Part shown: positions 1,629 through 60,510 of the stretch, in pieces | Layout: each line of letters starts with the position of its first letter | How positions within the stretch are numbered: position 1 is the first letter of the stretch | IMG/VR virus record: IMGVR_UViG_3300028800_000003 | Span: 1 to 64,000 of that record | Strand: one strand, 5' to 3' | Source of the DNA: a virus | DNA: 64,000 nucleotides | The notes under the pieces: generated by a model | Seen by the model: the letters and a program-made list of their open reading frames with translations, nothing else | Database searches by the model: none | Told to the model about the DNA's origin: nothing | Made by a program: the position numbers and the translations under genes

Positions 1629-3320
1629 TTATGCCGCCAGAGTTGTCCAGACCGGCGCGCGCACCAAGGCGCGAAATGCCGCAGCGAGGGCATCGACCTG
1701 GTCATCGTGCTTGTGGGATTCGTCTGGCTTGAAGGCGCACAGTTCATCAATCAGGTCTTTATTCCAGTCCCCCTCGCACATGACGATGATCTTGTGCTCG
1801 AAGCCCGCCACCAGCGGCGCTGCCCGAATGGCTTTCTTGCCGTGCTCCACCTCGACCGTCACGTCATAGCCGGCGAGTTGCTTTGCCAGCGCATACGCCA
1901 CGAATTTGCCGGACCCAGGGTCTTGCGGAATGCGGATGCGGCAGCTCGGGCCGTCGATTGCCGCAATGGCAGGAAGCGTTTTCTCGATCTGCCCCGGCGA
2001 GAGGCGGTCGCGGATCACGTCGAGGATGTAATAGATGTCATGCGGGTCAACGCCCATCAGGACGCCTGCCGTATAGTCCGGGTCCTTGCCCGGCTCCGGT
2101 TCGGTCCAGGCCAAATCCCAGGCGCGCACCAGGCGCAATTTCTTCTCGGCAATGAACGCGAAGCGATCGAACACCGGCAGTTTTGCGGTGAAAAACTCGC
2201 GCTTGAACATGCCGCCTTCGGCAGCGGTCGGGTTTTGTTGATATTGCGCAGCCTTATCGTGCGATGTCATGTATTTGGTGCGCGCATCGATTGCCGCTTT
2301 CGGCCATTTCACCGGCCACAGTACGTCGCCTTCCTCGCGGCGATCCTCCCATATCTCGCCGATGCGCGGCCCGATGTCGGTGCCGAAGCTGGCATCGGTC
2401 TTGCGAATGACCGGCTTGGTCAGCAGGCTGCCGCAGTTTTTCTTTTGCCCATCGGTCTTTAGATCGCGCATGAACAGGTACGGATGCTTGCGGTCGTGCT
2501 CATACGGCAGGCAGACATGGATGCCGTCGAACTCGTGGGCGAGGATGTGCCCGATCAGGTCATTCTCTGCCGTGCGCTGCATTGACAGGATGAACAAGCC
2601 ATGGATGTCGCGCAGGCGCGATTGCATGGCGTTGTCCCAGGTGCGGAGCATCTTGACGCGATCGGCCTCATAGGAATCGGCCACCGCGTTATGCACGTCA
2701 TCGAGCCCGATGATATGCGAACCGAACCCGGTGATGCCGCCCTTGGATGACAAGGCCTGGCGCAGCCCGCCGCGGTCATTGTTGAATTCCTGCACGCCTT
2801 CCTTGATCAGCTCGAAGCGATCGGGCGCAACAGCCTTTTCGACCTGGCCTTCCGTCACGTCGCCGATATTGAACCGGGTGCGCCAGCGGTCGCGATACCA
2901 GGAGGAGCGCACCAGTTGCAGATTCTTCGCCGCGTGCTGGTAGATCAGGTCTTGGTTGTAACCCAGGAAGATCATGCGGGCGCCGGGACCGCGCCAGCTA
3001 TTCGGCCGCAGGAAGCGCTTGTTATCGGGGTGGCCTTGCTTCGGGTCCTGTGCCCACAGCCAAGCAGGAAAGAACACATTGATGCCGAGCGACTTGGCGT
3101 GGCCGGGCGGCAAGGTGAAGATGATCAGGTTGCCAAGCTGCCAATCGACTGCCGCTGTGAGGTAGTCGCACATACAGTCAATGTGCCAGTTGCCAAGGAA
3201 CTGATCAGGCTCCAGCGCCCACGGCCAGGCGGCTGCCATGAAGCTGCCCAGCGACTCCTCATACTGAAGGCGGCTGGAGCGGGCGCGTTTGTTGATCGAT
3301 TCGTCGCCGTTAAGCAGCAT
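1629..3320 (-). CDS. terL: Terminase large subunit
   Basis: This 563-residue protein is the motor and nuclease that pumps DNA into the prohead. The ATPase half has a P-loop variant PPGHAKS (residues 71-77), followed by 'MIFLGYNQDL', and a Walker B-like 'GLDDVHN' (205-211). The nuclease half begins with 'RAWDLAW' (Asp402) and ends with 'DDQVDALAAAF' (from Asp539), giving the acidic residues of the RNase H-like fold. The length is typical of phage large terminases. Its start overlaps the end of the small terminase by 11 bases. Portal and capsid genes do not follow within the window, so either they lie beyond the left edge or the order is unusual. Confidence 0.95.
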   Translation of the reverse strand: MLLNGDESINKRARSSRLQYEESLGSFMAAAWPWALEPDQFLGNWHIDCMCDYLTAAVDWQLGNLIIFTLPPGHAKSLGINVFFPAWLWAQDPKQGHPDNKRFLRPNSWRGPGARMIFLGYNQDLIYQHAAKNLQLVRSSWYRDRWRTRFNIGDVTEGQVEKAVAPDRFELIKEGVQEFNNDRGGLRQALSSKGGITGFGSHIIGLDDVHNAVADSYEADRVKMLRTWDNAMQSRLRDIHGLFILSMQRTAENDLIGHILAHEFDGIHVCLPYEHDRKHPYLFMRDLKTDGQKKNCGSLLTKPVIRKTDASFGTDIGPRIGEIWEDRREEGDVLWPVKWPKAAIDARTKYMTSHDKAAQYQQNPTAAEGGMFKREFFTAKLPVFDRFAFIAEKKLRLVRAWDLAWTEPEPGKDPDYTAGVLMGVDPHDIYYILDVIRDRLSPGQIEKTLPAIAAIDGPSCRIRIPQDPGSGKFVAYALAKQLAGYDVTVEVEHGKKAIRAAPLVAGFEHKIIVMCEGDWNKDLIDELCAFKPDESHKHDDQVDALAAAFRALVRAPVWTTLAA

Positions 3321-4371
3321 CGGCGTCGCCCTCGATTGCCGCCGGCTTGGTCGTGCCTTTGGTCTGCAATTCCTTGAAGCGCACGAAGACCGGCACCGGC
3401 AGGAACTGCACGCCGCCCACCGCGTCGACGTTATCGGCGATCGTTGCCAGTTCGGCGCGTTCGGCTTCTGTCAGTTGATCCTCGGCAATACCGTCGAAGA
3501 CGTGATCGCCAGGGCGCTCGTCCTCGATCTCCTTGGCCTGCACCGTGATCGGCCCACCACCTGGGCCGCTGACCTCGGTCTTGTTGCGGAATTCAGGATC
3601 AAGCGAGCGCAATAGGAAATGCTGATCGGCCATGCTGCCGGCCGCGGCGCGCGAGACGGTCGCGTCATAGCAGCCTTCGAGGATCGTCGCCTTGGCCTCC
3701 ACCCGCAGTTTTTGCAGTTCTGGCGAGCTATTAACCAGGCGTGAGATGGTTTCCCTGGAACACTTGACTCCATACGCATCCTCCAGCGCGCGAGCCGCTG
3801 CTGCCGGGCTGCGGGGGTTTGCCTTCACGGCTGACCAGACACGCTCGACCGTCCAGAACTTGCGCTTGCCTGGATTGCCTGGCTCTCCAGGCTTCGGCAG
3901 ATACGCGGTGCCGTCGTCCTGCTCGATCGGCTCGACATGCTCCTTGGTGTCAGGCAGCGTCGCCAGCAATTGCGTGAGCGCAAAGGTATGCGGTGCGTCA
4001 GGATGCAGGCCGAGTTTCATCCCGGCTTCGTTCATGCGCGTGATGGCTTCATTGCGCATGTTGACGTAATCGTTCCGGGTGAGGCCTGTCTTGCTCGGCA
4101 TCAACTCGGCAGCCGCTTCGCCTTGCGGCTTCAACATCGCCGGCACGTCGCGGCTATCGTATTCCTTGCCGTAGTCGGCAATCTTGCGCTCATACTTGCG
4201 CTTGTCGGAATACGCCTCGCAGTAATCGATCAGGATGTCCCGGTGCTTGCCGGCCGCGTCTACTCGATTATGATCGAGCCGCGGCCAAGTCTCGCGCCAT
4301 TTCCATGCAGCGTCGCCGTTGAAATAACTCGGCGGTTCAGGGCAATTGATTGTCAGTGCAGTGGTCGTCAT
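3310..4371 (-). CDS. terS: Terminase small subunit, extended form
   Basis: The 353-residue protein recognises phage DNA for packaging, judged by position directly before terL and by content. Residues about 130-145 contain a 'GLTRNDYVNMRNEAI'-like segment as in P27-type small terminases. A middle helix-turn-helix lies around 'SPAAAARALEDAYGVKCSRETISRLV', and a 'VSGPGGGPI' segment typical of small terminases follows. The start ATG at 4371 is preferred over an upstream one at 4410, which lies in the coding sequence of the previous gene. Small terminases are usually 150-200 residues, so this looks like a fusion of two DNA-binding parts. Confidence 0.8.
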   Translation of the reverse strand: MTTTALTINCPEPPSYFNGDAAWKWRETWPRLDHNRVDAAGKHRDILIDYCEAYSDKRKYERKIADYGKEYDSRDVPAMLKPQGEAAAELMPSKTGLTRNDYVNMRNEAITRMNEAGMKLGLHPDAPHTFALTQLLATLPDTKEHVEPIEQDDGTAYLPKPGEPGNPGKRKFWTVERVWSAVKANPRSPAAAARALEDAYGVKCSRETISRLVNSSPELQKLRVEAKATILEGCYDATVSRAAAGSMADQHFLLRSLDPEFRNKTEVSGPGGGPITVQAKEIEDERPGDHVFDGIAEDQLTEAERAELATIADNVDAVGGVQFLPVPVFVRFKELQTKGTTKPAAIEGDADAA

Positions 4372-5298: not shown

Positions 5299-5478
5299 TT
5301 ATTTCCCCTGTTGATTTGGTTGGTTTGCGAGGACGAGGCAGCGATTGGAACCGTCCAGCGCCGTCGCGATCTCCTTGCACTCTTGCGCCATCGCTCTGGC
5401 TTCCTCGTCGCCAAGGCAGATCGCAGCAGCGTACAGCTTGCGGGCGTATTCGCGCAGACGTTCAGGTGTCAATCTCAT
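5299..5478 (-). CDS. Hypothetical protein, 59 aa, member of a local paralogue family
   Basis: With the ATG at 5478 this gene encodes MRLTPERLREYARKLYAAAI..., a helical protein related to the one at 6664-7017: both share the pattern LR-x3-A-x-KLY, then MA-x-EC, then A-x2-LD. The start overlaps the stop of the DUF4177-like frame (ATGA), the normal junction in this cluster. As the sequence is written, an extra A upstream joins it in frame to that gene. Confidence 0.6.
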   Translation of the reverse strand: MRLTPERLREYARKLYAAAICLGDEEARAMAQECKEIATALDGSNRCLVLANQPNQQGK

Positions 5479-5685
5479 GATCGCCGCCGTTTGAGAAAGA
5501 CATAGCCGTCTGACATGGCGACCATTTTCCCAGCCGTCCTGACCGAGTTTGTTAAGGTCTAGTTCAAATATCGACGCCGTCTCCTCAATGTTGAGGAAGC
5601 GGTGCATATGAACGACGCGATATTCCCAGCGACCGCCGCAGCCGGGACAGGTGGGCTTTGCCTTCGGCTGATCCTGATCGGTCAT
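5299..5685 (-). CDS. DUF4177-like protein, fused to the next gene by a +1 frameshift
   Basis: As written the frame encodes 128 residues. The first half has a CPGCGG zinc-type motif and then 'WEYRVV...LNKLGQDGWE', the pattern of DUF4177-like small proteins. The expected continuation, MVAMSDGYVFLKRRRS with a stop at 5475-5477, appears if one A is removed from the run at 5525-5528 (GGGAAAATG read as GGGAAATG). That stop makes a clean ATGA with the next gene at 5478. The fusion is therefore probably the result of a one-base insertion, real or from sequencing. Confidence 0.6.
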   Translation of the reverse strand: MTDQDQPKAKPTCPGCGGRWEYRVVHMHRFLNIEETASIFELDLNKLGQDGWENGRHVRRLCLSQTAAIMRLTPERLREYARKLYAAAICLGDEEARAMAQECKEIATALDGSNRCLVLANQPNQQGK

Positions 5686-9809: not shown

Positions 9810-9947
9810 TCAGGGACGGCCTTGTCCGCGATACGCCTTCCAGTTTTTCCGCTTGTGCTTGCCCTTGGGCTTGTTATCGACGCCCTGCGAGGTGCGCTTG
9901 CAGACAGGGTCCTTGCGATAGACGGCGACGCCGATGGGCTTTGCCAT
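9810..9947 (-). CDS. Small very basic protein, 45 aa
   Basis: MAKPIGVAVYRKDPVCKRTS and 25 more residues, rich in Lys/Arg and glycine at the end, suggesting nucleic-acid binding. The gene has its own strong leader: ACCCCTGTCT, then CGGAG, then ATG (9951-9982 on the opposite strand). A nearly identical block is found in the candidate small RNA at 24335-24366, so this mRNA is its best-matching putative target. Confidence 0.65.
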   Translation of the reverse strand: MAKPIGVAVYRKDPVCKRTSQGVDNKPKGKHKRKNWKAYRGQGRP

Positions 9948-9948
9948 G

Positions 9949-9990
9949 GTGCTTTTTTGCTCCGTGTGTGAGAGACAGGGGTCTTGGTTT
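9949..9990 (-). promoter_or_regulatory. ACCCCTGTCT/GGAG leader of the 45-aa basic protein
   Basis: Read on the minus strand, the leader has ACAACAAAAAACCAA, then ACCCCTGTCT, then ACGGAGCAAAA and the start codon. The same order and much of the same sequence occur before the gene at 10418-10657. It is one of about ten copies of the motif in the window. Confidence 0.6.
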
Positions 9991-10657: not shown

Positions 10658-10700
10658 CGTATTTGCTCCGTTAGACAGACAGGGGTGGATTGGTTTTTTG
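10658..10700 (-). promoter_or_regulatory. ACCCCTGTCT/GGAG leader of the MazG operon
   Basis: On the minus strand this reads ACAACAAAAAACCAATCC, then ACCCCTGTCT, then ACGGAGCAAA before the ATG at 10657. It is a near copy of the leader at 9949-9990. Confidence 0.6.
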
Positions 10701-12317: not shown

Positions 12318-12672
12318 GATCGAATTGGCTCCGGGTATGTGAGGATCGATGGGGCTTGGAACGCGAAACGTCTTAACGCGTTTCCGTGTATAGCCGCATA
12401 CCGCGAGTTGCCGAACGTCGTCAAGCGAATGTTTGCGGAATTCCGGAAAGTCCGGAAAATCCCGAAAAACCGTTATTTTTCAATAGGTTAACTGGACCGA
12501 AATTCGCCTTATCCCTCAATGACTTAGCCCGATGCCCCTGCGACAGCCTGTCGCACATAGACGCGGGTATTACCCTTGCATACCCTCATGCCCTAGTTTA
12601 CATATGAACTATAAGAAACGTCGAAACGAGAAACGAAACACCCCTGTCTCAAAACAAACCCGGAGATTTGGA
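12318..12672. promoter_or_regulatory. Divergent control region between leftward and rightward operons
   Basis: No gene is seen in these 355 bases. Leftward, a -35 TTGACG (12419-12424) and a weak -10 (TATGCG, 12395-12400) precede the gene at 12317. Rightward, TTGCAT (12576-12581) and TACATA (12599-12604) are 17 bases apart. Just upstream of the rightward promoter is a perfect palindrome, TGCGACAGCCTGTCGCA (12539-12555), a likely operator. The rightward leader carries ACCCCTGTCT before the first gene. Confidence 0.6.
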
Positions 12673-13580: not shown

Positions 13581-13639
13581 TATGTCGCGCGTGCGACGCG
13601 ACATAAGTGGGCGACAGACCCCTATCCGAGAGGACAACA
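13581..13639 (+). promoter_or_regulatory. Hairpin plus ACCCCTATC leader
   Basis: TATGTCGCG (13581-13589) and CGCGACATA (13597-13605) form a perfect 9-bp stem with a 7-base loop. It is followed by ACCCCTATC, then GAGAGGACAACA and the ATG at 13640. The same hairpin-motif-ribosome-site order is seen before several other genes. Confidence 0.6.
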
Positions 13640-15017: not shown

Positions 15018-15145
15018 GACAAACGGAGTCATCCAGAAGCGAGGCCTGTGCCCTTTGGGTTCCAGTCCTCTCCCATCCGCAGAAGCGGTTGGGGTTTGTT
15101 GTCCGCTTCTGCCCGCATGGGCCTCGCTCCTCGATGACTCCGAAA
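15018..15145 (+). ncRNA. Highly structured leader RNA upstream of the AAA ATPase gene
   Basis: Three long perfect stems nest in about 120 bases: 15024-15033 pairs with 15133-15142 (10 bp), 15038-15046 with 15120-15128 (9 bp), and 15079-15088 with 15103-15112 (10 bp, 14-base loop). The RNA would start near 15018, right at the first stem, from the promoter just upstream. It ends next to ACCCCTATC (15145-15153) and 24 bases before the ATG at 15167. It may be a regulatory leader or be processed into a free small RNA. No known riboswitch class is recognised. Confidence 0.65.
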
Positions 15146-15166
15146 CCCCTATCGAAAAGAGACAAG

Positions 15167-20194: not shown

Positions 20195-20384
20195 AGGCTT
20201 TCACCTGCAAGTCGTCAACGGCCTACGCCGATCATGGCGGCTTGATTATATCGCTCGCGCTCGCCCGCGTCACAGTCTCTACCCGCCAGCGCCAGTGCGG
20301 TTTTCGTGGGGCGCATTCTACCCCTGGAACAAAAAACCGAAACGAAAGACCCCTATCAGCAACAATGAAAAAACGCGACGTTAA
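20181..20384 (+). CDS. Hypothetical basic protein, 67 aa
   Basis: A basic, aromatic-rich protein (MMRFRGFHLQVVNGLRRSWR...) that follows GGCGAGGACC, overlaps the gene upstream by 14 bases, and overlaps the start of the methylase-like gene by 20 bases. It fills a gap that would otherwise be empty. Function unknown. Confidence 0.5.
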   Translation: MMRFRGFHLQVVNGLRRSWRLDYIARARPRHSLYPPAPVRFSWGAFYPWNKKPKRKTPISNNEKTRR

Positions 20385-21793: not shown

Positions 21794-22396
21794 ATGTCAC
21801 AGACAGAAGATCAGACACACGAAGCCATCGTCGCCGAACTTGCCAAACAACATCCAAAGCTGCCCGAGCTGGTCGATCATTTCCAGCAAGAGCAGCGGCG
21901 AATCGTTCTCGACTATGTCGGCGCCTGCGAGAGTGCCGGAGTCGACAAGTTTGCGCTGTCATCGGGATTGCTCACTGCCATCATGAGCACTGCCGCTGGC
22001 ATGATGGGAGACACCACCATTACGCCAGAGACTGCTGGCGATATGTTCAAGCGTGCGGTTGCCAAGGCGAAAGGCATCAATGATGTCCCGGCTGTCGGCA
22101 CCGCAACAATGGAGACGCTGTCAAATGAATTCTGCGGACGACTCCAGTCGGCTATGAGAGAATTCAAGACTGGCGCCAGAGCCGCGGGCATCTCGTTTGA
22201 CGAGGTCATGATTTCCGTCGGCGCCACTTTGATGGCTGCCGCTTGTCGCTTCCTCGCTCATTTCACGACGATGACGCCGGAGAATGCTTCCGCCAAGATG
22301 GTGGAGATGATCACGATGATGCGCAGCGACAATCCCAATGCTGCCAATCAGAAAAAAGACGGCCCGATGTTTGTGATGGAGCCCGCGTCTGCATGA
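21794..22396 (+). CDS. Hypothetical protein, 200 aa
   Basis: An all-helical protein (MSQTEDQTHEAIVAELAKQH...) with hydrophobic helices in the middle (MSTAAGMMGDTTITPETAGD) and near the end. It follows CGAAGAAAGGA and is coupled to the next gene by ATGA. Function unknown. Confidence 0.65.
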   Translation: MSQTEDQTHEAIVAELAKQHPKLPELVDHFQQEQRRIVLDYVGACESAGVDKFALSSGLLTAIMSTAAGMMGDTTITPETAGDMFKRAVAKAKGINDVPAVGTATMETLSNEFCGRLQSAMREFKTGARAAGISFDEVMISVGATLMAAACRFLAHFTTMTPENASAKMVEMITMMRSDNPNAANQKKDGPMFVMEPASA

Positions 22397-23853: not shown

Positions 23854-23933
23854 CTGACTTTGAACGTGGCTTTATTTGGGGCTGCACATTGACCGGGGTG
23901 GCGATGATTATGCTGTATTGCCTCAATGTTTGA
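23850..23933 (+). CDS. Membrane microprotein, 27 aa
   Basis: MTDFERGFIWGCTLTGVAMI and seven residues: one hydrophobic helix. Overlapping start and stop codons tie it to both neighbours. Function unknown. Confidence 0.5.
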   Translation: MTDFERGFIWGCTLTGVAMIMLYCLNV

Positions 23934-24279
23934 CCTGAAACGTCCATGCGTTAACTGTCCGTTCCGCAAAGGCCAGGGCGAGCGCTTCCGGCTTCCCAGG
24001 CTGCGCCTGCGCGAAATCAAGCGCGGGCCAGCCTTCCAGTGCCACAAGACCGTCGACTACAGCGACGGCGACTCCGATGGCCAGCCAGGGGATCGGCCGC
24101 AGCAGTGCGCCGGCCTGATGGCCGTGCTGCATCGTGAGAACGAGCACAATCAGATCATGCAGGTCGCGGAACGGATCGGCGGCATCACCTTCGACAATAT
24201 AGACCCAGATCAGGAAGCCTACGCCTCTTGGAATGACGTGTTATGCGCTCATGGCGCGATCGATGATGATGCAGATTAG
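23926..24279 (+). CDS. Cysteine-rich conserved phage protein, 117 aa
   Basis: The N-terminal 'RPCVNCPFRK' and later 'FQCHKTVDY' and 'QCAGLMAVLHRENEH' give a Cys/His set typical of small metal-binding phage proteins in the DUF6283 style. Function unknown. It is the last gene of the rightward operon. Confidence 0.7.
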   Translation: MFDLKRPCVNCPFRKGQGERFRLPRLRLREIKRGPAFQCHKTVDYSDGDSDGQPGDRPQQCAGLMAVLHRENEHNQIMQVAERIGGITFDNIDPDQEAYASWNDVLCAHGAIDDDAD

Positions 24280-24282
24280 GGG

Positions 24283-24411
24283 TTGTACCTGATCGAATTT
24301 TGGCGTATATGAGGCGTCTACCTCGTACCCGGATGCTTTTGCTCCGTGTGAGAGATAGGGGTTAACTTTAAGCGCGGCGGCCTTCCGGCTCGCCGCGTCT
24401 TTTTTTACGCC
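24283..24411 (+). ncRNA. Candidate trans-acting small RNA
   Basis: A promoter-like pair, TTGTAC (24283-24288) and TATATG (24306-24311) 17 bases apart, would start a transcript near 24318. A terminator ends it at about 24406. Nothing in the transcript looks like a gene. It contains GCTTTTGCTCCGTGTGAGAG followed by ATAGGGGTTAAC, the complement of the ACCCCTRTCT-plus-CGGAG leaders found before many phage genes. The match to the leader at 9951-9982 is almost complete. Such an RNA of about 90 bases could pair with the ribosome-binding sites of those mRNAs. Alternatively the block is a relic leader on the minus strand that has lost its gene. Confidence 0.5.
24373..24406 (+). terminator. Rho-independent terminator
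   Basis: CGCGGCG (24373-24379) and CGCCGCG (24391-24397) form a 7-bp stem around an 11-base loop, followed by TCTTTTTTT. It works only for plus-strand transcription, since no T-run follows on the other strand. Confidence 0.8.
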
Positions 24412-25013
24412 GCCACCAGGACCCGGCGCCGCGCGGTCTGTTTCGGCATCATGAATTTTACCTTAGTCCAGATCACCTCGCATTGCAGACCCTTGCGATC
24501 GAGGACACGGCGCTTGGACAGATGCAGAGCCCGTGCCACACGCTGCGCCGAGCGCCCTTGCCCGAGCATATAGATCAGCTTCCAATCGCGCACCTTGATC
24601 GCCTCCGTCCTGCCTACCAGACACTCCTTGAATACCCGCGTGATGGTATCCATCAGCTTTTGTTCCTCCGGCGTCGCGTCGCGGCGAATACCGTACACGA
24701 CATCGGCAGGCTCGCCGGCTGCGATCTCCGCGGCGCGCTGCTTTTCTATTTCGTACAGCATCTCCTCGATTGTCTTGTAGCCCCAGGCGGCGAGGTCTTG
24801 CTGTGTCACGCCGTGAGCCATGTTGGCCAGTGGAGAACTGTTCGGCGCGATCGGAAAACCGCGCACCCGCATCCGACGTTCGATGTCGGCAGCGTTTTTG
24901 ATGACTTCGAAGACGATTTCCCCGCCGGTCACCTTGCGATTTTTCCAGAGCGCGTATCGGGCACTGGCCAAAGCCTGCCCGATCGCCTGCTGATCATCTT
25001 CATTCCAGGTCAT
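24405..25013 (-). CDS. Conserved phage protein with C-terminal helix-turn-helix, 202 aa
   Basis: The start at 25013 is the first ATG (MTWNEDDQQAIGQALASARY...) after the SSB gene. The part 'ALWKNRKVTGGEIVFEVIKN' and 'ADIERRMRVRGFPI' recurs in phage replication clusters. Near the end, 'RSAQRVARALHLSKRRVLDR' looks like a helix-turn-helix. Probably a DNA-binding protein of the replication module; exact role unknown. Confidence 0.65.
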   Translation of the reverse strand: MTWNEDDQQAIGQALASARYALWKNRKVTGGEIVFEVIKNAADIERRMRVRGFPIAPNSSPLANMAHGVTQQDLAAWGYKTIEEMLYEIEKQRAAEIAAGEPADVVYGIRRDATPEEQKLMDTITRVFKECLVGRTEAIKVRDWKLIYMLGQGRSAQRVARALHLSKRRVLDRKGLQCEVIWTKVKFMMPKQTARRRVLVAA

Positions 25014-25023
25014 TGCCAAAACC

Positions 25024-25509
25024 TCAGAACGGAATTTCGTCGTCGATCGGCGGCGCCGATTGGCGCTGCTGCCGGGCTTGCGCGCTCGGGCCAGGCGAAC
25101 CAAAATCATCGCCGCCAGATTGTTGCTCCTGGTCGCCACCGTTGCTGTTGCTGTTGCTGTTGTTGCCAATCAGCGTGATGGAGCCGTCGTAGGCCTGCAA
25201 CACCACCTCGGTCGAGTAGCGATCCGTGCCGCTCTGATCCTGCCACTTGCGCGTTTGCAGTTTGCCCTCGATGTAGACCTGCGAGCCTTTTTTCAGATAC
25301 CGCTCGACGATCTTGCACAGACCTTCATTGAAGATCACGACGCGGTGCCACTCGACCTTCTCGCGACGCTCACCGCTTTGCTTGTCCTTCCAGGTGTCAG
25401 AGGTAGCGATACGCAGATTGGCGATCGGTCGACCGTCTTGCGTGCGACGAATCTCAGGATCGGCGCCGAGGCGACCGAGCAGAATGACTTTGTTGACCGA
25501 ACCGGCCAT
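25024..25509 (-). CDS. ssb: Single-stranded DNA-binding protein
   Basis: The 161-residue protein has the OB-fold of bacterial SSB ('[20 protein letters not shown]', '[20 protein letters not shown]', '[17 protein letters not shown]'), a Gln/Asn-rich linker and the acidic tip DDEIPF that recruits partner proteins. It coats single-stranded DNA during phage replication and recombination. The linker contains an NSNSNS run made by a GTT/GCT hexanucleotide repeat (about 25141-25165). A leader with ACCCCTAC and ACGGAGCAAA precedes it, although the gene directly follows the helicase gene. Confidence 0.97.
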
Positions 25510-32143: not shown

Positions 32144-32611
32144 GCGCCACGCCTCCGTGCTGTCCGCAACTTGTCGTTTTGTGCTGCGGTTATTGAGATA
32201 AGGGGTTGATTTATCTTGATTTTTTGATTTTCGGCGTCGATTTTAGGACTGTTAATCCTCCTCAAAAGTTGTTTGTTCCTGGGCGTCTGCCTTAGTTTCG
32301 GCGCATCCTGCGATCAGCCTTTTCCGCAGTGGTGGAAGGGGTTCCCAGATAGCCGCAGTGCCTCCCGCGGATGCCGGATAACCTCTTGCGACATTGACAT
32401 TGAAGCCATTCGGCTTAGGTTCCGTCATTAAGTCGCCGCATTGATCGGCGGCGAATCAGGTGGTGGCCGTCTGGCGGCCGGATCGAAATAAGCGCAACGG
32501 TTGTCGGACTGGGGTTGACTCAGGTCTCATAACCGCAATGATGCGGTTAGGTGCGGAATGGTGTCAAGCGAAATTTTGTGTCCTGTCGTAGATCAGCATC
32601 GGGGGGTGCCA
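32144..32611. promoter_or_regulatory. Immunity/control region between replication operon and repressor
   Basis: No convincing gene in about 470 bases. A GCGGTTA site (32186-32192) lies in the leader of the leftward operon next to an ACCCCTTATC sequence. Near the repressor gene, TAACCGCA and TGCGGTTA form a perfect inverted repeat with a 4-base spacer (32530-32549), directly after TTGACT (32516-32521). These look like operator and promoter of the repressor. A second promoter-like pair is TTGACA (32394-32399) with TAGGTT. The region 32220-32380 is AT-richer and shows nothing else clear. Confidence 0.6.
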
Positions 32612-35219: not shown

Positions 35220-36158
35220 ATGAACGCACTGACCAAGATCGAGACCGGCACCGCAATCGCGACCTGGACTCCGCGGCAGCTCGAAACCATCAAACGCACC
35301 GTCGCCCGCGACACCAGTGACGACGAATTCAACCTGTTCATCGAATACGCCAAGGTGAAAGGCCTCGACCCGTTTTCGCGGCAGGTCATCGCGATCATCT
35401 TTAACAAGGACAAGCCTGAAAAACGGCAGATGACCATCATCACCACGCAAGAGGGCTTGCGGGTGATGGCGGCGCGCTGCGGCGACTACCGCCCGGCCGA
35501 GGAGGAACCGGCCTATGAGTATGGCGCTGAGAAGACAGGGACCAATCCGCTCGGTCTCGTCAAATGCACCGTGAAACTGTGGAAGCAAGACCCGCGCACC
35601 AATCAATGGTTCCCGGTCAGCGGCACGGCGTATTGGGACGAACACGCTCCGATCAAGGAGGAGTGGGCCTGGAACGAACAGGCCAACAAACGCAAGCCGA
35701 CCGGCAAGCTGATCGTCGAAGACAACTGGAGAAAGATGGGCCGCTTGATGCTGGCGAAATGCGCCACCACGCAAGCGCTCCGCGCCGGCTGGCCGGCGAC
35801 GTTCTCCGGTGTGTACGGCGAGGAGGAAATGGATCGCGCCATCACCGACGATCGCACCGCTTCCGAAATCGTCGCGATGGAAGCCGAGGTTCGGCGCGCC
35901 AAGGCCATCGGCATGTCCGACGATGAATATCCCTTCGTCGACGACCAGGGCAACATGCACTTCATCCCCGCCGGCGAATACGGCGATCGACTTATCGAGG
36001 AAGCGCGCGCCTACAAGACGGCAGAGCCGTTGCAGGCGATGATCGTGCGCAACCGCGAGGGCTTCAATCGCTTCTGGGCGAAGCACAAGTCCGACGCCCT
36101 TGAGGTCAAGCGCTCGCTGGAAGGCATTGGCGAGAAGCTGTCCAAGGTGGCGGCGTGA
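35220..36158 (+). CDS. bet: Single-strand annealing protein Bet/RecT family
   Basis: The 312-residue protein matches the RecT/Bet family: 'RDTSDDEFNLFIEYAKVKGL', 'DPFSRQVIAIIFNKDKPEKR', 'MTIITTQEGLRVMAARCGDY' and 'NWRKMGRLMLAKCATTQALR' as in lambda Bet. It anneals complementary single strands during phage recombination. A partner 5'-3' exonuclease is not obvious nearby; the DEDD exonucleases at 43327 and 51458 have the opposite polarity. Confidence 0.95.
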   Translation: MNALTKIETGTAIATWTPRQLETIKRTVARDTSDDEFNLFIEYAKVKGLDPFSRQVIAIIFNKDKPEKRQMTIITTQEGLRVMAARCGDYRPAEEEPAYEYGAEKTGTNPLGLVKCTVKLWKQDPRTNQWFPVSGTAYWDEHAPIKEEWAWNEQANKRKPTGKLIVEDNWRKMGRLMLAKCATTQALRAGWPATFSGVYGEEEMDRAITDDRTASEIVAMEAEVRRAKAIGMSDDEYPFVDDQGNMHFIPAGEYGDRLIEEARAYKTAEPLQAMIVRNREGFNRFWAKHKSDALEVKRSLEGIGEKLSKVAA

Positions 36159-37469: not shown

Positions 37470-38200
37470 CTAAAAAGGGCTCTGAATTCCCGCCGCTCCT
37501 GATGGAGCGCGTCGCCAGGAAAATCGGCAACCAGACCTTCATCGGCTGGGTGCCGGCCGACCCAGTAAGCGCCGAGCGCATTTCCGAGCGCTACCGCGTC
37601 GGCGCCCAAGTCAATTTCACCACCTGGGAGGCGCGCGATCCGCGCAAGCTGCGCCTCTACTGGGCAATCCTGCAAGAGTGCGTCGCCAACGGCGAGAAAT
37701 ACGGCCGCGCCGAAGACCTGCACAACGCAGTCAAGATCGCGCTCGGCTATAAGCGCGAAATCCGCCTGCTCAATGTCGGCGAAACGTCATCGCTATTGAT
37801 GTCGCTTGGCGTCGTGCTCAACAAGATTCGCATGGTCTCGGAGAACAGCGACACCATTTTCGGCAAGCTGATCCGACCGTTGGTGAAACAGGCTTTCGAG
37901 ATCGCCGAGAAGGTCGGCGGCACGGTGAGCGACACCATCATCCTGCCGGGCTCGATCGCACTCGACAAGATGGACGAAGGCGAGTTCCGCATTTTCTTCG
38001 ACCGCGCAATGAACGAATTGCGTCGGGCTGGCTATCCCATCGATGAAATCATGGAAGCCAGCAAACAAAAACTCGCCCGAACTCGGGCGAGACAGACCCC
38101 TCCCCTCAATTACGGAGACAGCAACTATGGGCGAAGCCAAACGCCGCCGCGAGAAGATCGCGGAGTTAAAGACCCAGTCAGTAAAGAAGCAGCGGCATAA
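37466..38200 (+). CDS. NinB/DUF1367-like recombination-associated protein, 244 aa
   Basis: 'RDPRKLRLYWAILQECVANG', 'DLHNAVKIALGYKREI' and 'DEGEFRIFFDRAMNELRRAG' follow the pattern of phage NinB/DUF1367-type proteins that accompany recombination functions. The last 50 residues are polar and share DNA with the leader of the next gene, including an 8-bp hairpin. The assignment is by pattern and position, so moderate. Confidence 0.65.
   Translation: MTKKGSEFPPLLMERVARKIGNQTFIGWVPADPVSAERISERYRVGAQVNFTTWEARDPRKLRLYWAILQECVANGEKYGRAEDLHNAVKIALGYKREIRLLNVGETSSLLMSLGVVLNKIRMVSENSDTIFGKLIRPLVKQAFEIAEKVGGTVSDTIILPGSIALDKMDEGEFRIFFDRAMNELRRAGYPIDEIMEASKQKLARTRARQTPPLNYGDSNYGRSQTPPREDRGVKDPVSKEAAA
38072..38126 (+). 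promoter_or_regulatory. Hairpin plus ACCCCT leader inside the 3' end of the gene upstream
   Basis: CTCGCCCG (38072-38079) and CGGGCGAG (38084-38091) form an 8-bp stem with a 4-base loop, followed by GACAGACCCCTC, then ACGGAG and the ATG at 38127. Same order as the leader at 13581-13639, although here it is within coding sequence. Confidence 0.55.
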
Positions 38201-55111: not shown

Positions 55112-55201
55112 TTGACGCCGTCTCGCCGTGCCGTGTAGGACGCGGTTTAACGCGGAAATAACCGCGTCGTAACCGTAACCCCCGCTCGACACGGAGCCAT
55201 C
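55112..55201 (+). promoter_or_regulatory. Promoter and operator of the rlpA-like gene
   Basis: TTGACG (55112-55117) and TAGGAC (55136-55141) are 18 bases apart. ACGCGGTT (55140-55147) and AACCGCGT (55160-55167) form an inverted repeat over the start of transcription, a variant of the TAACCGC operator. The leader ends in ACGGAGCC before the ATG at 55202. Confidence 0.6.
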
Positions 55202-55531
55202 ATGAAGAAGCTGACTGTAGCAGCCACAGCGCTGCTGGCAATGCTCACGGTGACGCCTGCCCTGGCGCAGACCGGAATTGCCTCGATCTATGACCGTGGC
55301 CCAACGGCATCAGGCATCCATTTCAACCCGCGGGCGTTCACCGCGGCGTCGAAGACACTGCCGCTCGGCTCCTATGCCCGCGTCACCAATCTGCACAACG
55401 GCCGCTCTGTCGTCGTGCGGATTATCGATCGCGGCCCTTATATGCGGGGTCGGATCATCGATCTGACGCCGGCCGCGGCGCGCGCCATCGGCAACAGCGG
55501 CCTCGCCCATGTCAGCGTGGAGGCGCTGTAA
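55202..55531 (+). CDS. RlpA-like double-psi beta-barrel protein
   Basis: A clear signal peptide (MKKLTVAATALLAMLTVTPA) is followed by an RlpA-type domain: 'GIASIYDRGPTASGIHFNPR', 'SKTLPLGSYARVTNLHNGRS', 'VRIIDRGPYMRGRIIDLTPA'. RlpA proteins are cell-wall lytic transglycosylases or peptidoglycan binders. At 109 residues it is the minimal domain. Position next to attP and a repressor-type operator suggest a lysogenic conversion gene or a lysis helper. Confidence 0.88.
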   Translation: MKKLTVAATALLAMLTVTPALAQTGIASIYDRGPTASGIHFNPRAFTAASKTLPLGSYARVTNLHNGRSVVVRIIDRGPYMRGRIIDLTPAAARAIGNSGLAHVSVEAL

Positions 55532-56753: not shown

Positions 56754-57190
56754 TCTACGGAAGGTAGCATAGACCAGGTTTTAATGCAGGTGCAGTGTAT
56801 TCCAGTAGGCGAGTGTTTGCCGTCAGCATAGCGGGCATTCTGTAAAGCGGGACGCCGCGAGCCGAAAAGTAAGCTGCACGTCGAAGAATGGTTCAAGCCC
56901 ATTCCCTTCCACCGAACAAAAAAGAGCCGCCCCAGGGAATCCCCGAGGCGGCTTTTTTGTCAGATTGTCGCACCCGAAAAGCGCGATGAATTGCGAACTT
57001 GTTGCCGCCGACTTTATTTGCTCGACCAGAGAAACACGCATGACATCGTGTCAAGGTTTTGCGATCTGATAACGGTTGCTGCGATGTCACGCGGACTTGC
57101 GCGCCGAAAACCGACCCGTTTCGCCAATTCCAGATAGTGCGATGATTATATTAGCAGCATCAACCCCTATCAAAGGAGCAAACAAACAAG
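56754..57190. other. Intergenic region with bidirectional terminator
   Basis: No gene is convincing in these 437 bases. It holds a two-way terminator (56928-56958) and, at the right end, the promoter and leader of the gene at 57191: TATATT (57147-57152) with no good -35, then ACCCCTATC and GGAGCAAACAAACAAG. Confidence 0.6.
56928..56958. terminator. Bidirectional Rho-independent terminator
   Basis: AGCCGCC (56935-56941) and GGCGGCT (56947-56953) make a 7-bp stem, flanked by an A-run on the left and TTTTTT on the right, so it can stop transcription on both strands. Confidence 0.8.
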
Positions 57191-58289: not shown

Positions 58290-58795
58290 CAGGCGGCCTC
58301 CAGATAGTCGGCCGCAACACGTAGGATAGACGGATCGTCCTTGGCGTGACCGAGAATGGCATTACAGTTATGGCAAAGCAAACCGCGCACAGCCTTTGTC
58401 TTGTGGCAGTGATCAACGAAAAGACTGATGTGCTTTGAATTACCGATAGGCGATGGACAGATGGCGCAGTGGCCGCCCTGCTTTTTCAAAAGCGCCTGAT
58501 AGTCTTCGATGGTGAGGCCGTATCTCGCCAAATTACCCGACCGGACAAGCGCCGGATTGGCGGCATACCGCTTGCGCATGTATGAGGCATGCTGAGCCAG
58601 TTGTTCTGGCGTTCGCTTCGCCTTCTTCACCGCAGGATTGCGCTCGACGTATGAACGTCGACACTCGCGCGAACATTCGACGCACTGGCGACTTTGAACG
58701 AAGCGAGCTGCAAGATGGCCTTGTAGGCATGGCCGCCCCGTGCAGTATTGCTTCAAGCCGCGTGACAATGCGTCCTTGCGGGACACAACATTCAT
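58289..58795 (-). CDS. Recombination endonuclease VII-like protein
   Basis: An N-terminal Cys motif ('RPCLQGHLAARFVQSRQCVE') is followed by the endonuclease VII core: 'YGLTIEDYQALLKKQGGHCA', 'FVDHCHKTKAVRGLLCHNCN' and 'AILGHAKDDPSIL'. T4 endonuclease VII resolves branched DNA before packaging; small HNH relatives like this may also be homing-type. Start at 58795 is the first ATG after the gene upstream. Confidence 0.88.
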   Translation of the reverse strand: MNVVSRKDALSRGLKQYCTGRPCLQGHLAARFVQSRQCVECSRECRRSYVERNPAVKKAKRTPEQLAQHASYMRKRYAANPALVRSGNLARYGLTIEDYQALLKKQGGHCAICPSPIGNSKHISLFVDHCHKTKAVRGLLCHNCNAILGHAKDDPSILRVAADYLEAA

Positions 58796-58796
58796 C

Positions 58797-60071
58797 CTAC
58801 GCTGCCTCTTTGAACTCGGTGGCTTTGCGGGCCGCCGACGGGATGTTGATGCGGAGACGGCCAATCTCCCCTTCCTCGCGGTGAATTGTGATCGATGAAA
58901 GCGATTTTCCAGATGTGTAGCCAGACGCCTCGTGATGCGCGTCATTGGCCGCGAGCGTCTGGAACGACTCGACCCGCACGTCACCGATCTCCTTTACGGA
59001 CTCGTGGTGAATGTGCCCGAAATAGAAATAGTGATAGGCAGTGGAGCCCCAATCTTCGCGAGCACGCACCGCCATCGCCATCGCCATATCCTGCGGTTTG
59101 CAGCGGTAGCCATGCGTGGCGCCGATCAGTGTGTTGCCGAACCGATGGAAAAAGAATTCGGACGGCGAGCCCCACACCTTGACGCGCGGATTGTTGGCGT
59201 AGGCTTCGATCAGCGCGACATCGAGGGCGATGCTGGAATGCGGGTCGTGGTTGCCGGGAATGTTCACGACCAGCACGTCATGATGCTTCTGGAGCGCCAG
59301 ATCGACGATGTTCTTCATCAACTGGACGCCGGCCACCAAAATCTTTCGATAGCGGCTATCGACATCGAGCTTATTCTTGTGGCCTGGAGTGAGGTTGGTG
59401 CTGTCGTCTGTGTGCTGCCAGTCGCCGAGGTTGAGAACGATGGCCTGACGGCTATGTGGAGCCTGGGAGACCATACGGCTGGCGCACGCCATGAGGCGCT
59501 GTTTGCCGATCTCCAGGTCGTAGGGTTCGCCAGTTTCCTTGCCCCAAGCGAGCAAGCCATTGTGCTGGTCGGCAATCGGGTACACCGAGAGCAGGTCAAC
59601 ATCAGTCAGGTGTGGCGGATGGATTAATGGAACCGGGGCGATTTCGTCCTTAAAGACCTCCTTGATGGCCTCTACCAGGAAACGATTCTCATCGTCCTTG
59701 GTCCGAATCCAGGCCTGTTTGAGAATGCCCTCCGGCGTGATGTGGTAGGTGCCCTTGCCGAGCACCTTGCCCTTGGGCATCTCGAAGACAACGCCCTCGC
59801 CTTCGTCCGGCGAATTGATCTGGGATACCGTTTGCGCCGTGACGTTGCCGCTGCCGTCGGTCGTGGTCGAGGTCTTGTTGATGACGAAGCCGGGCAGCAC
59901 CGGTTTGAAGCCAAGCAGTCCGCGTTCGGCCGCGGCGTACAGTCGGCGCCGGAAGCTGGTCTTGGCCATGTTGTTGAGGGAGCGGGCAGCCGCGGCCTTG
60001 TTCTGGCCGTTTGCCTCGTAAGCGGCGGCGACGGCTTTAAGGTCGTCGTCGGAAAAGGATTCACCTTGCAA
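58797..60071 (-). CDS. Metallophosphoesterase with N-terminal helix-turn-helix
   Basis: The first 60 residues ('DDLKAVAAAYEANGQNKAAA' and 'ARSLNNMAKTSFRRRLYAA') look like a helix-turn-helix. The main part has calcineurin-like motifs: 'YPIADQHNG', 'LNLGDWQH', 'VNIPGNHDPHS', 'GATHGY' and 'YFGHIHHES'. It should cleave phosphodiesters, perhaps in DNA or nucleotides. A TTG at 60071 is chosen as start because it follows ACCCCTATCT and CGGAG; the earlier GTG in the same frame lies upstream of that leader. Confidence 0.8.
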   Translation of the reverse strand: MQGESFSDDDLKAVAAAYEANGQNKAAAARSLNNMAKTSFRRRLYAAAERGLLGFKPVLPGFVINKTSTTTDGSGNVTAQTVSQINSPDEGEGVVFEMPKGKVLGKGTYHITPEGILKQAWIRTKDDENRFLVEAIKEVFKDEIAPVPLIHPPHLTDVDLLSVYPIADQHNGLLAWGKETGEPYDLEIGKQRLMACASRMVSQAPHSRQAIVLNLGDWQHTDDSTNLTPGHKNKLDVDSRYRKILVAGVQLMKNIVDLALQKHHDVLVVNIPGNHDPHSSIALDVALIEAYANNPRVKVWGSPSEFFFHRFGNTLIGATHGYRCKPQDMAMAMAVRAREDWGSTAYHYFYFGHIHHESVKEIGDVRVESFQTLAANDAHHEASGYTSGKSLSSITIHREEGEIGRLRINIPSAARKATEFKEAA

Positions 60072-60156
60072 TGGCTTAACTCCGTGGGGGCAGATAGGGG
60101 TCGCGGGTATTTTCTGTTTGACCCGCACATAACCGCATGATAGCCGTTCCCGTCAA
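60072..60156 (-). promoter_or_regulatory. Promoter, TAACCGC site and ACCCCTATCT leader
   Basis: On the minus strand, TTGACG (60151-60156) is followed 18 bases later by TTATGT; a TAACCGC site (60130-60136) lies over the -10. The mRNA start has a hairpin (GCGGGT with ACCCGC), then ACCCCTATCT and CACGGAG before the TTG. All elements of the phage leader family are present. Confidence 0.65.
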
Positions 60157-60162
60157 GCGATT

Positions 60163-60510
60163 TTAATTCAGGGTGTCATCCTTTCTGACGCGGTGGATCA
60201 GCTCGCCGAATAGCTGCTGGATCGACACCGTCATCTGGCTCATTTCCTTGCTGATCTGAGCCATGATCTGGTTGAGAGATTCGGTGAGGCGCTTCTCGAC
60301 CTCCTGCACCGCTTTGATGGTGGCATAGCTTTGCGCCACCTCGATGCGGTGATCTTGAATTGAGGAACGCAGTTCGTTGATGGCGGTGGCCTGCTGGCTC
60401 TGTTGGCGGATCACATAGCCAACGATGGCGAGAGCGATCATGCCGCCAACGCCAATGAGCGAGCCGAATTCAGTCCAGGTGACGGAGGAGGGGTCAAGCA
60501 TCTTGGTCAT
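60163..60510 (-). CDS. Membrane protein with coiled coil, possible holin or spanin component
   Basis: Beginning MTKMLDPSSVTWTEFGSLIG (ATG at 60510 or 60501), it has one membrane segment (about 18-38) and a coiled-coil C-terminal domain of about 70 residues. It is immediately downstream of the endolysin, where holin or spanin genes are common, so a lysis role is likely but not shown. Confidence 0.65.
   Translation of the reverse strand: MTKMLDPSSVTWTEFGSLIGVGGMIALAIVGYVIRQQSQQATAINELRSSIQDHRIEVAQSYATIKAVQEVEKRLTESLNQIMAQISKEMSQMTVSIQQLFGELIHRVRKDDTLN

Follow-up and report, generated by a model that had tools for sequence, protein, structure and literature searches.

A start-associated leader element in a large phage genome and an inverted orphan copy in a terminator-linked hairpin, a candidate antisense RNA

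The locus described here lies between two convergent operons of a virus genome. The window, by which the whole analysed stretch of 64,000 nucleotides is meant, covers positions 1 to 64,000 of the IMG/VR record IMGVR_UViG_3300028800_000003, which holds 119,739 bases in total. A direct repeat of ~26 bases is common to both ends of the record, which fits a circular or terminally redundant genome. Profile matches were obtained for a terminase, a DNA polymerase exonuclease subunit, a primase, a helicase, a single-stranded DNA-binding protein (SSB), an integrase, a repressor-type regulator and an RtcB-type ligase. From these matches the record is read as a large temperate phage. The collections searched held no isolate or near relative of this phage, and the genome contigs searched for relatives yielded nothing useful. 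The closest records by terminase are 35–40% identical. Gene starts were assigned throughout with a simple scoring script and not with a standard gene finder.

The plus-strand gene at 23926-24279 and the minus-strand gene ending at 24405 are separated by a non-coding region, as the first-pass annotation had described. The plus strand of a block in this region (24313-24406) is the reverse complement of a leader that is repeated in the phage genome, and a strong intrinsic terminator, a GC-rich hairpin followed by a T7 tail, stands at its end (Table 1). The block is an inverted orphan copy of the leader within an imperfect hairpin; a terminator follows, and the whole lies where a plus-strand operon ends. 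A promoter had also been proposed in front of it (TTGTAC-17-TATATG, 24283-24311). This part of the earlier description did not hold, since the pair scores 7/12, a promoter scanner calls none, and 24–26% of random windows do equally well. No Rfam family was found above its gathering threshold in the window; the closest match near the block reached 14.8 bits against a cut-off of 41. Homologues of the block were absent from the 199 loci fetched (2.76 Mb). A second anti-leader near-copy, AGATTAGGGGTTGTAC, was seen at 24274-24288, over the stop codon of the 23926 gene and ~75 bases before the main one.

Table 1. Positions in the window of the orphan block, the leaders and the associated genes
Feature	Position	Strand	Basis
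SL1, imperfect hairpin with 1x1 mismatches every 3–4 bp and a UUUU loop; anti-leader as 3' arm	24313..24363	+	
Anti-SD/spacer box TTTGCTCCG, complement of leader CGGAGCAAA	24338..24346	+	sequence, duplex prediction
Anti-leader box AGATAGGGGT, complement of ACCCCTATCT	24353..24362	+	sequence
SL2, intrinsic terminator hairpin with T7 tail	24372..24406	+	sequence and fold
Orphan leader ACCCCTATCTCTCACACGGAGCAAAAGCA, no start codon behind	24335..24362	-	26/28 bases as in the 9947 leader
Leader of 9947 gene	9948..9982	-	
Leader of 10657 gene	10658..10686	-	
Leader of 12673 gene	12640..12672	+	
Leader of 13640 gene	13618..13639	+	
Leader of 15167 AAA ATPase gene	15145..15166	+	
Leader of 20365 N6-methylase-like gene	20349..20364	+	
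Looser leader ACCCCTACACACAACGGAGC of SSB gene; overlaps helicase stop codon	25510..25536	-	
Looser leader ACCCCTCCCC...ACGGAG, hairpin directly 5'	38096..38126	+	
Looser leader ACCCCCGC...ACGGAGC, DPBB-domain gene, hairpin directly 5'	55178..55201	+	
Leader of 57191 gene	57163..57190	+	
Leader of 60071 DNA repair exonuclease gene (TTG start)	60072..60101	-	
ProQ/FinO-family protein, 114 aa	44521..44865	+	PF04352, 67.8 bits
Upstream gene, 117 aa; block would fall in its 3' UTR	23926..24279	+	
Convergent gene, end of primase-helicase-SSB operon; start uncertain, up to 25169	24405..25013	-	

The repeated leader of this phage has the form ACCCCTRTC...CGGAGCAAA, with ACCCCTRTC or a close variant directly 5' of the Shine-Dalgarno sequence (SD). 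Over the 119,739 bases of the genome, gene-sense ACCCCTRTC occurs in nine strict copies, all of them between 9.9 and 60.1 kb. Eight of the nine stand 16–35 bases 5' of a gene start, mostly with an SD behind them, and fall in a zone of -14 to -44 that makes up 2.5% of the genome (p = 1.3e-12). These eight precede the starts at 9947, 10657, 12673, 13640, 15167, 20365, 57191 and 60071. The ninth, at 24362 on the minus strand, is the only strict copy without a gene. Looser leaders were found before SSB (25509), 38127 and 55202, and weaker ones before 21270 and 21794. The first-pass annotation had listed all of the strict leaders except 12673; its list also lacked the looser leaders at 38127 and 55202 (as well as the weaker ones), and the 25509 leader that it gave as ACCCCTRTCT reads ACCCCTACAC. 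The phage carries a start-associated leader element on about ten to a dozen genes, several of them with functions in replication or DNA metabolism, and the leader family itself can be regarded as solid.

The genes behind the leaders come from unrelated, mainly non-structural families, including an AAA ATPase, a methylase, SSB and an exonuclease. The leader was absent from the 16 SSB homologues inspected in other phages. The variety of gene families together with these SSB homologues indicates that the element belongs to the phage and not to the genes. Several leaders are internal to operons, and that of SSB shares bases with the helicase stop codon; the element therefore most likely acts at the level of RNA or translation and not as a promoter. 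Viral contigs scanned for the exact leader contained none. That the motif pairs with helix 45 of the 16S rRNA was considered and set aside by reasoning, because motif and SD do not follow each other in the order that pairing of both at once would need.

Other repeated sequences were noticed in the same record. A second leader family lies beyond the window at 118817-119650 of the record, where near-identical copies of GCGACCTGTAGCAAAATCAAGGAGGGAGGAAG precede small genes at 119046 and 119590 and a diverged copy precedes 118817. A T-rich leader like GGCGCCTTTTTCATTTTCC, of a class that differs from the C-rich one, is found just before the SD at starts 71257, 78774, 86699 and 89725. On the minus strand, 32480-32570 and 60071-60180 both carry TTGAC and TGCGGTTATG near repressor-type and exonuclease genes, possibly as a promoter or operator pair.

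Two terminase relatives of the phage have leaders of their own. In IMGVR_UViG_3300045257_000499 (G002) the leader is CCCTACCA, and 14/14 copies precede starts. In IMGVR_UViG_3300049905_000040 (G003) the leader is CCCCTGCCA, with 18 copies, most of them before starts (8/18 by the start predictor, more by eye); at least two copies, at 22249 and 2065, have no clear SD and start behind them. Both leaders lie directly 5' of the SD and are homogenised within each phage, and the 7-mers with the strongest enrichment before starts in these phages fall within the motif. The core common to the three phages is CCC(C)TRYC. A consensus that differs between phages and is homogeneous within each is expected if the copies are prevented from diverging by a trans factor or a strong common constraint. 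In another record, IMGVR_UViG_3300036829_000172, many genes are preceded by a palindrome resembling GTTCATTTTTTGAAC and then a ACCCCnnCACGAGAGA leader; this looks like a further start-associated repeat system.

Neither relative has an anti-leader together with a terminator. An apparent anti-leader RNA at 35814 in G002 was rejected, being the antisense of a variant leader. No ProQ match was found in G002, G003 or six other records tested, records that may be fragments, which suggests that ProQ is not a general requirement of the leaders. The presence of leaders in these two relatives, which have no comparable RNA and no ProQ, counts against an antisense RNA. The leader could instead be a binding site for a protein, such as a phage RNA-binding protein or a host translation factor (e.g., ribosomal protein S1), or it could enhance translation as an unstructured C-rich stretch. 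The orphan would then be a decoy or a chance hairpin and would have no antisense role. The motif stands directly 5' of the SD, as this proposal would have it, and real leaders are unstructured (-2 to -7 kcal/mol, whereas the orphan's minus strand reaches -17.6). The sharing of a core by three phages that do not share a ProQ or an anti-leader RNA also points to a common host partner or an effect on the ribosome. We nevertheless consider a purely protein-binding or enhancer role improbable: beyond the terminase and the neighbouring gene at 3310-4371, no candidate protein is common to the three phages (tblastn, E 1e-5), and the terminator-linked hairpin of the orphan is left unexplained.

The sequence directly 5' of the leaders was also compared with controls. 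Hairpins at this position have lower z values than controls in this phage (p = 0.015) and in G002 (p = 0.019), but not in G003 (p = 0.13); as a general feature of leaders this is a trend only. Opposite-strand terminators were considered as a general feature and dropped, with 2/48 leaders against 2/290 controls (p = 0.10, not significant). An A-run and a hairpin stand directly 5' of two leaders, at 38076-38126 in the window and at ~5438-5500 on the minus strand of G002, where they would terminate RNA antisense to the leader.

At the block itself, AGATAGGGGT is present exactly, as had been reported. With up to one mismatch it has 10 matches in the window against 0.87 expected, and 10 was reached in 0/100 shuffles. 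The 28-base match to the leader of the 9947 gene, described earlier as nearly perfect, was recovered at 9955-9982 when the phage's own genome was searched (89% identity, E = 3e-4). The minus strand of the block holds a complete leader, with SD and spacer and without a start codon. A relic origin had been mentioned in the first-pass annotation and had not been weighed. In such a history, the primase-helicase-SSB-24405 operon once ran on and the leader of its next gene remains at 24362, while the lost gene was replaced by the convergent plus-strand module. The terminator would simply belong to the plus operon, and the plus-strand anti-leader would be functionless. This is a serious possibility, which we place somewhat below an even chance. 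An orphan copy of the leader accounts for most of the sequence, a point against an antisense RNA. It explains why the minus strand keeps the SD CGGAG and the spacer GCAAAAGCA nearly as at 9947, not all of which an antisense RNA needs. It also fits the order of stop, hairpin and leader, which recurs at 38127, at 55202 and at several leaders of G002 and G003. The copies in G003 that have no clear SD and start are a parallel case, and a terminator between convergent operons is expected anyway. However, no remnant of a minus-strand gene is recognisable; the frame that was examined opens with ATC, which is not a start codon, and is antisense to the 23926 gene. The sequence downstream of a relic leader should also be random, yet here it folds on the leader.

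In the predicted fold, the RNA of the whole block forms two hairpins (z -3.8), of which SL1 reaches -21.9 kcal/mol. The 5' arm was swapped for 20,000 random genome segments with the anti-leader arm kept fixed, and 0.3% folded as well; on either strand, the natural arm beats 99.7% of random segments. The p value of 0.003 for the hairpin is moderate and optimistic, because the fold was already known when the hairpin was tested. Of all the results, only this fold-back beyond random would not be expected from a simple relic.

Pairing between the block RNA and the start regions of the phage was then predicted. The sequence itself gives two pairing boxes: UUUGCUCCG, for the SD and spacer CGGAGCAAA, and AGAUAGGGGU, for ACCCCURUCU. 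When intramolecular structure was taken into account, the best 5 of 193 start regions by net energy all belong to leader genes (Mann-Whitney p = 4e-7), namely 9947 (-27.5 kcal/mol), 10657 (-20.6), 60071 (-15.5), SSB at 25509 (-15.4) and 20365 (-12.2). This agrees with the pairing proposed in the first-pass annotation. Plain duplex energies, calculated without structure, did not separate leader genes from other start regions (p = 0.50). Strong pairing is expected of any inverted copy of the leader, so that these energies speak for feasibility and not for function.

The preferred reading, by a narrow margin over the relic, is that the block yields an antisense RNA, most likely as a 3'-UTR product of the plus operon, with a probability of about 0.4. 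The two hairpins, the U7 terminator, the 5' arm (p = 0.003), the pairing with leaders and the FinO-family gene make a short RNA credible; the dedicated promoter adds nothing to this. An RNA of ~90 nt with two hairpins would arise by read-through of the plus operon and not from a dedicated promoter. The U4 loop of SL1 and the UUUGCUCCG box may first pair with the A-rich spacer and the SD of the leaders (CGGAGCAAA), after which the arm of SL1 would open and AGAUAGGGGU could pair with ACCCCURUC. The ribosome-binding site would be covered, and translation of several phage genes would be lowered. The ProQ/FinO protein of the phage, whose gene is present as had been claimed, may stabilise the RNA.

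Such an action would resemble that of FinP or of the c4 RNA of phage P1, with the difference that many leaders would be targeted in trans. Both FinP and phage c4 RNA are established examples of antisense RNAs that block ribosome-binding sites (PMC9977716, PMC12197685). The ProQ/FinO family binds intrinsic terminators whose hairpins carry 3' tails, and pairing of FinP with the ribosome-binding site of traJ is assisted by FinO (PMC9977716). As with FinP and FinO of F-like plasmids, an antisense RNA that blocks ribosome-binding sites and offers its terminator to a FinO/ProQ protein is proposed here, and a FinO-family protein is encoded on the same element. FinP, however, is encoded in cis opposite a single target, traJ, whereas the candidate RNA would act in trans on many leaders. 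The c4 RNA of phages P1 and P7 likewise blocks a ribosome-binding site through complementary stretches, as is proposed here, but it is a different RNA that acts on the ant mRNA, and the window has no Rfam match to a known phage RNA. The full version of the model, in which one FinP-like RNA and the ProQ/FinO protein of the phage pair in trans with the leaders and set the translation of ~10 genes together, is rather unlikely at present.

The leader family has a known counterpart in the start-associated sequences (SAS) of cluster K mycobacteriophages, which have the consensus GGGATAGGAGCCC (Pope et al., 2011, PMC3203893). Both are short, asymmetric, many-copy motifs at the starts of non-structural genes of unrelated families, and both can overlap the stop codon of the previous gene. 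Single SAS sites in the opposite orientation and away from gene starts have been described in Anaya, Adephagia, Angelica and CrimD (PMC3203893); the phage studied here is like cluster K1 phages in having one opposite-orientation copy that is not at a gene start. In contrast, the SD is part of the cluster K SAS, which hardly varies among the cluster K phages examined, whereas the leader here is C-rich, lies 5' of the SD and varies in consensus between related phages. With ACCCCTRTC placed 5' of a separate SD, the element works like an SAS without being a cluster K SAS proper.

The opposite-orientation site of Adephagia was found to supply the 10-nt loop, CCUCCUAUCC, of a long hairpin; the surrounding non-coding region has homologues in 177 phage records. 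This unannotated structured region of cluster K (JF704105.1, ~58540-58800) has several hairpins and an invariant TAGACT, and one of its loops is the exact complement of the SAS core in K1-like phages. The region is conserved across 16 phages, and outside K1-like phages the loop changes to CCCTCCTTCC, CTTCCCTTCC and TTCTCCCTTCC. Covariation in cluster K fails: the loop drifts in DarthP, Unicorn, Shandong1 and Amgine, but their SAS is still GGGATAGGAGCCC. The parallel with cluster K is suggestive and does not extend to covariation.

The role of SAS in phages was open in 2011, and experimental verification was still called for in 2025 (PMC3203893, PMC12699233). A shared leader, an inverted copy in an RNA-like context and a ProQ protein of the phage's own together provide a concrete, testable RNA-based hypothesis for this role. 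Regardless of the RNA, the leader consensus changes in concert across a genome. The lineage-specific C-rich leaders of three related phages extend such systems beyond the actinobacterial phages in which they have been found described. If the full antisense model proves true, the shared leader would join its genes into a translational regulon that spans the phage.
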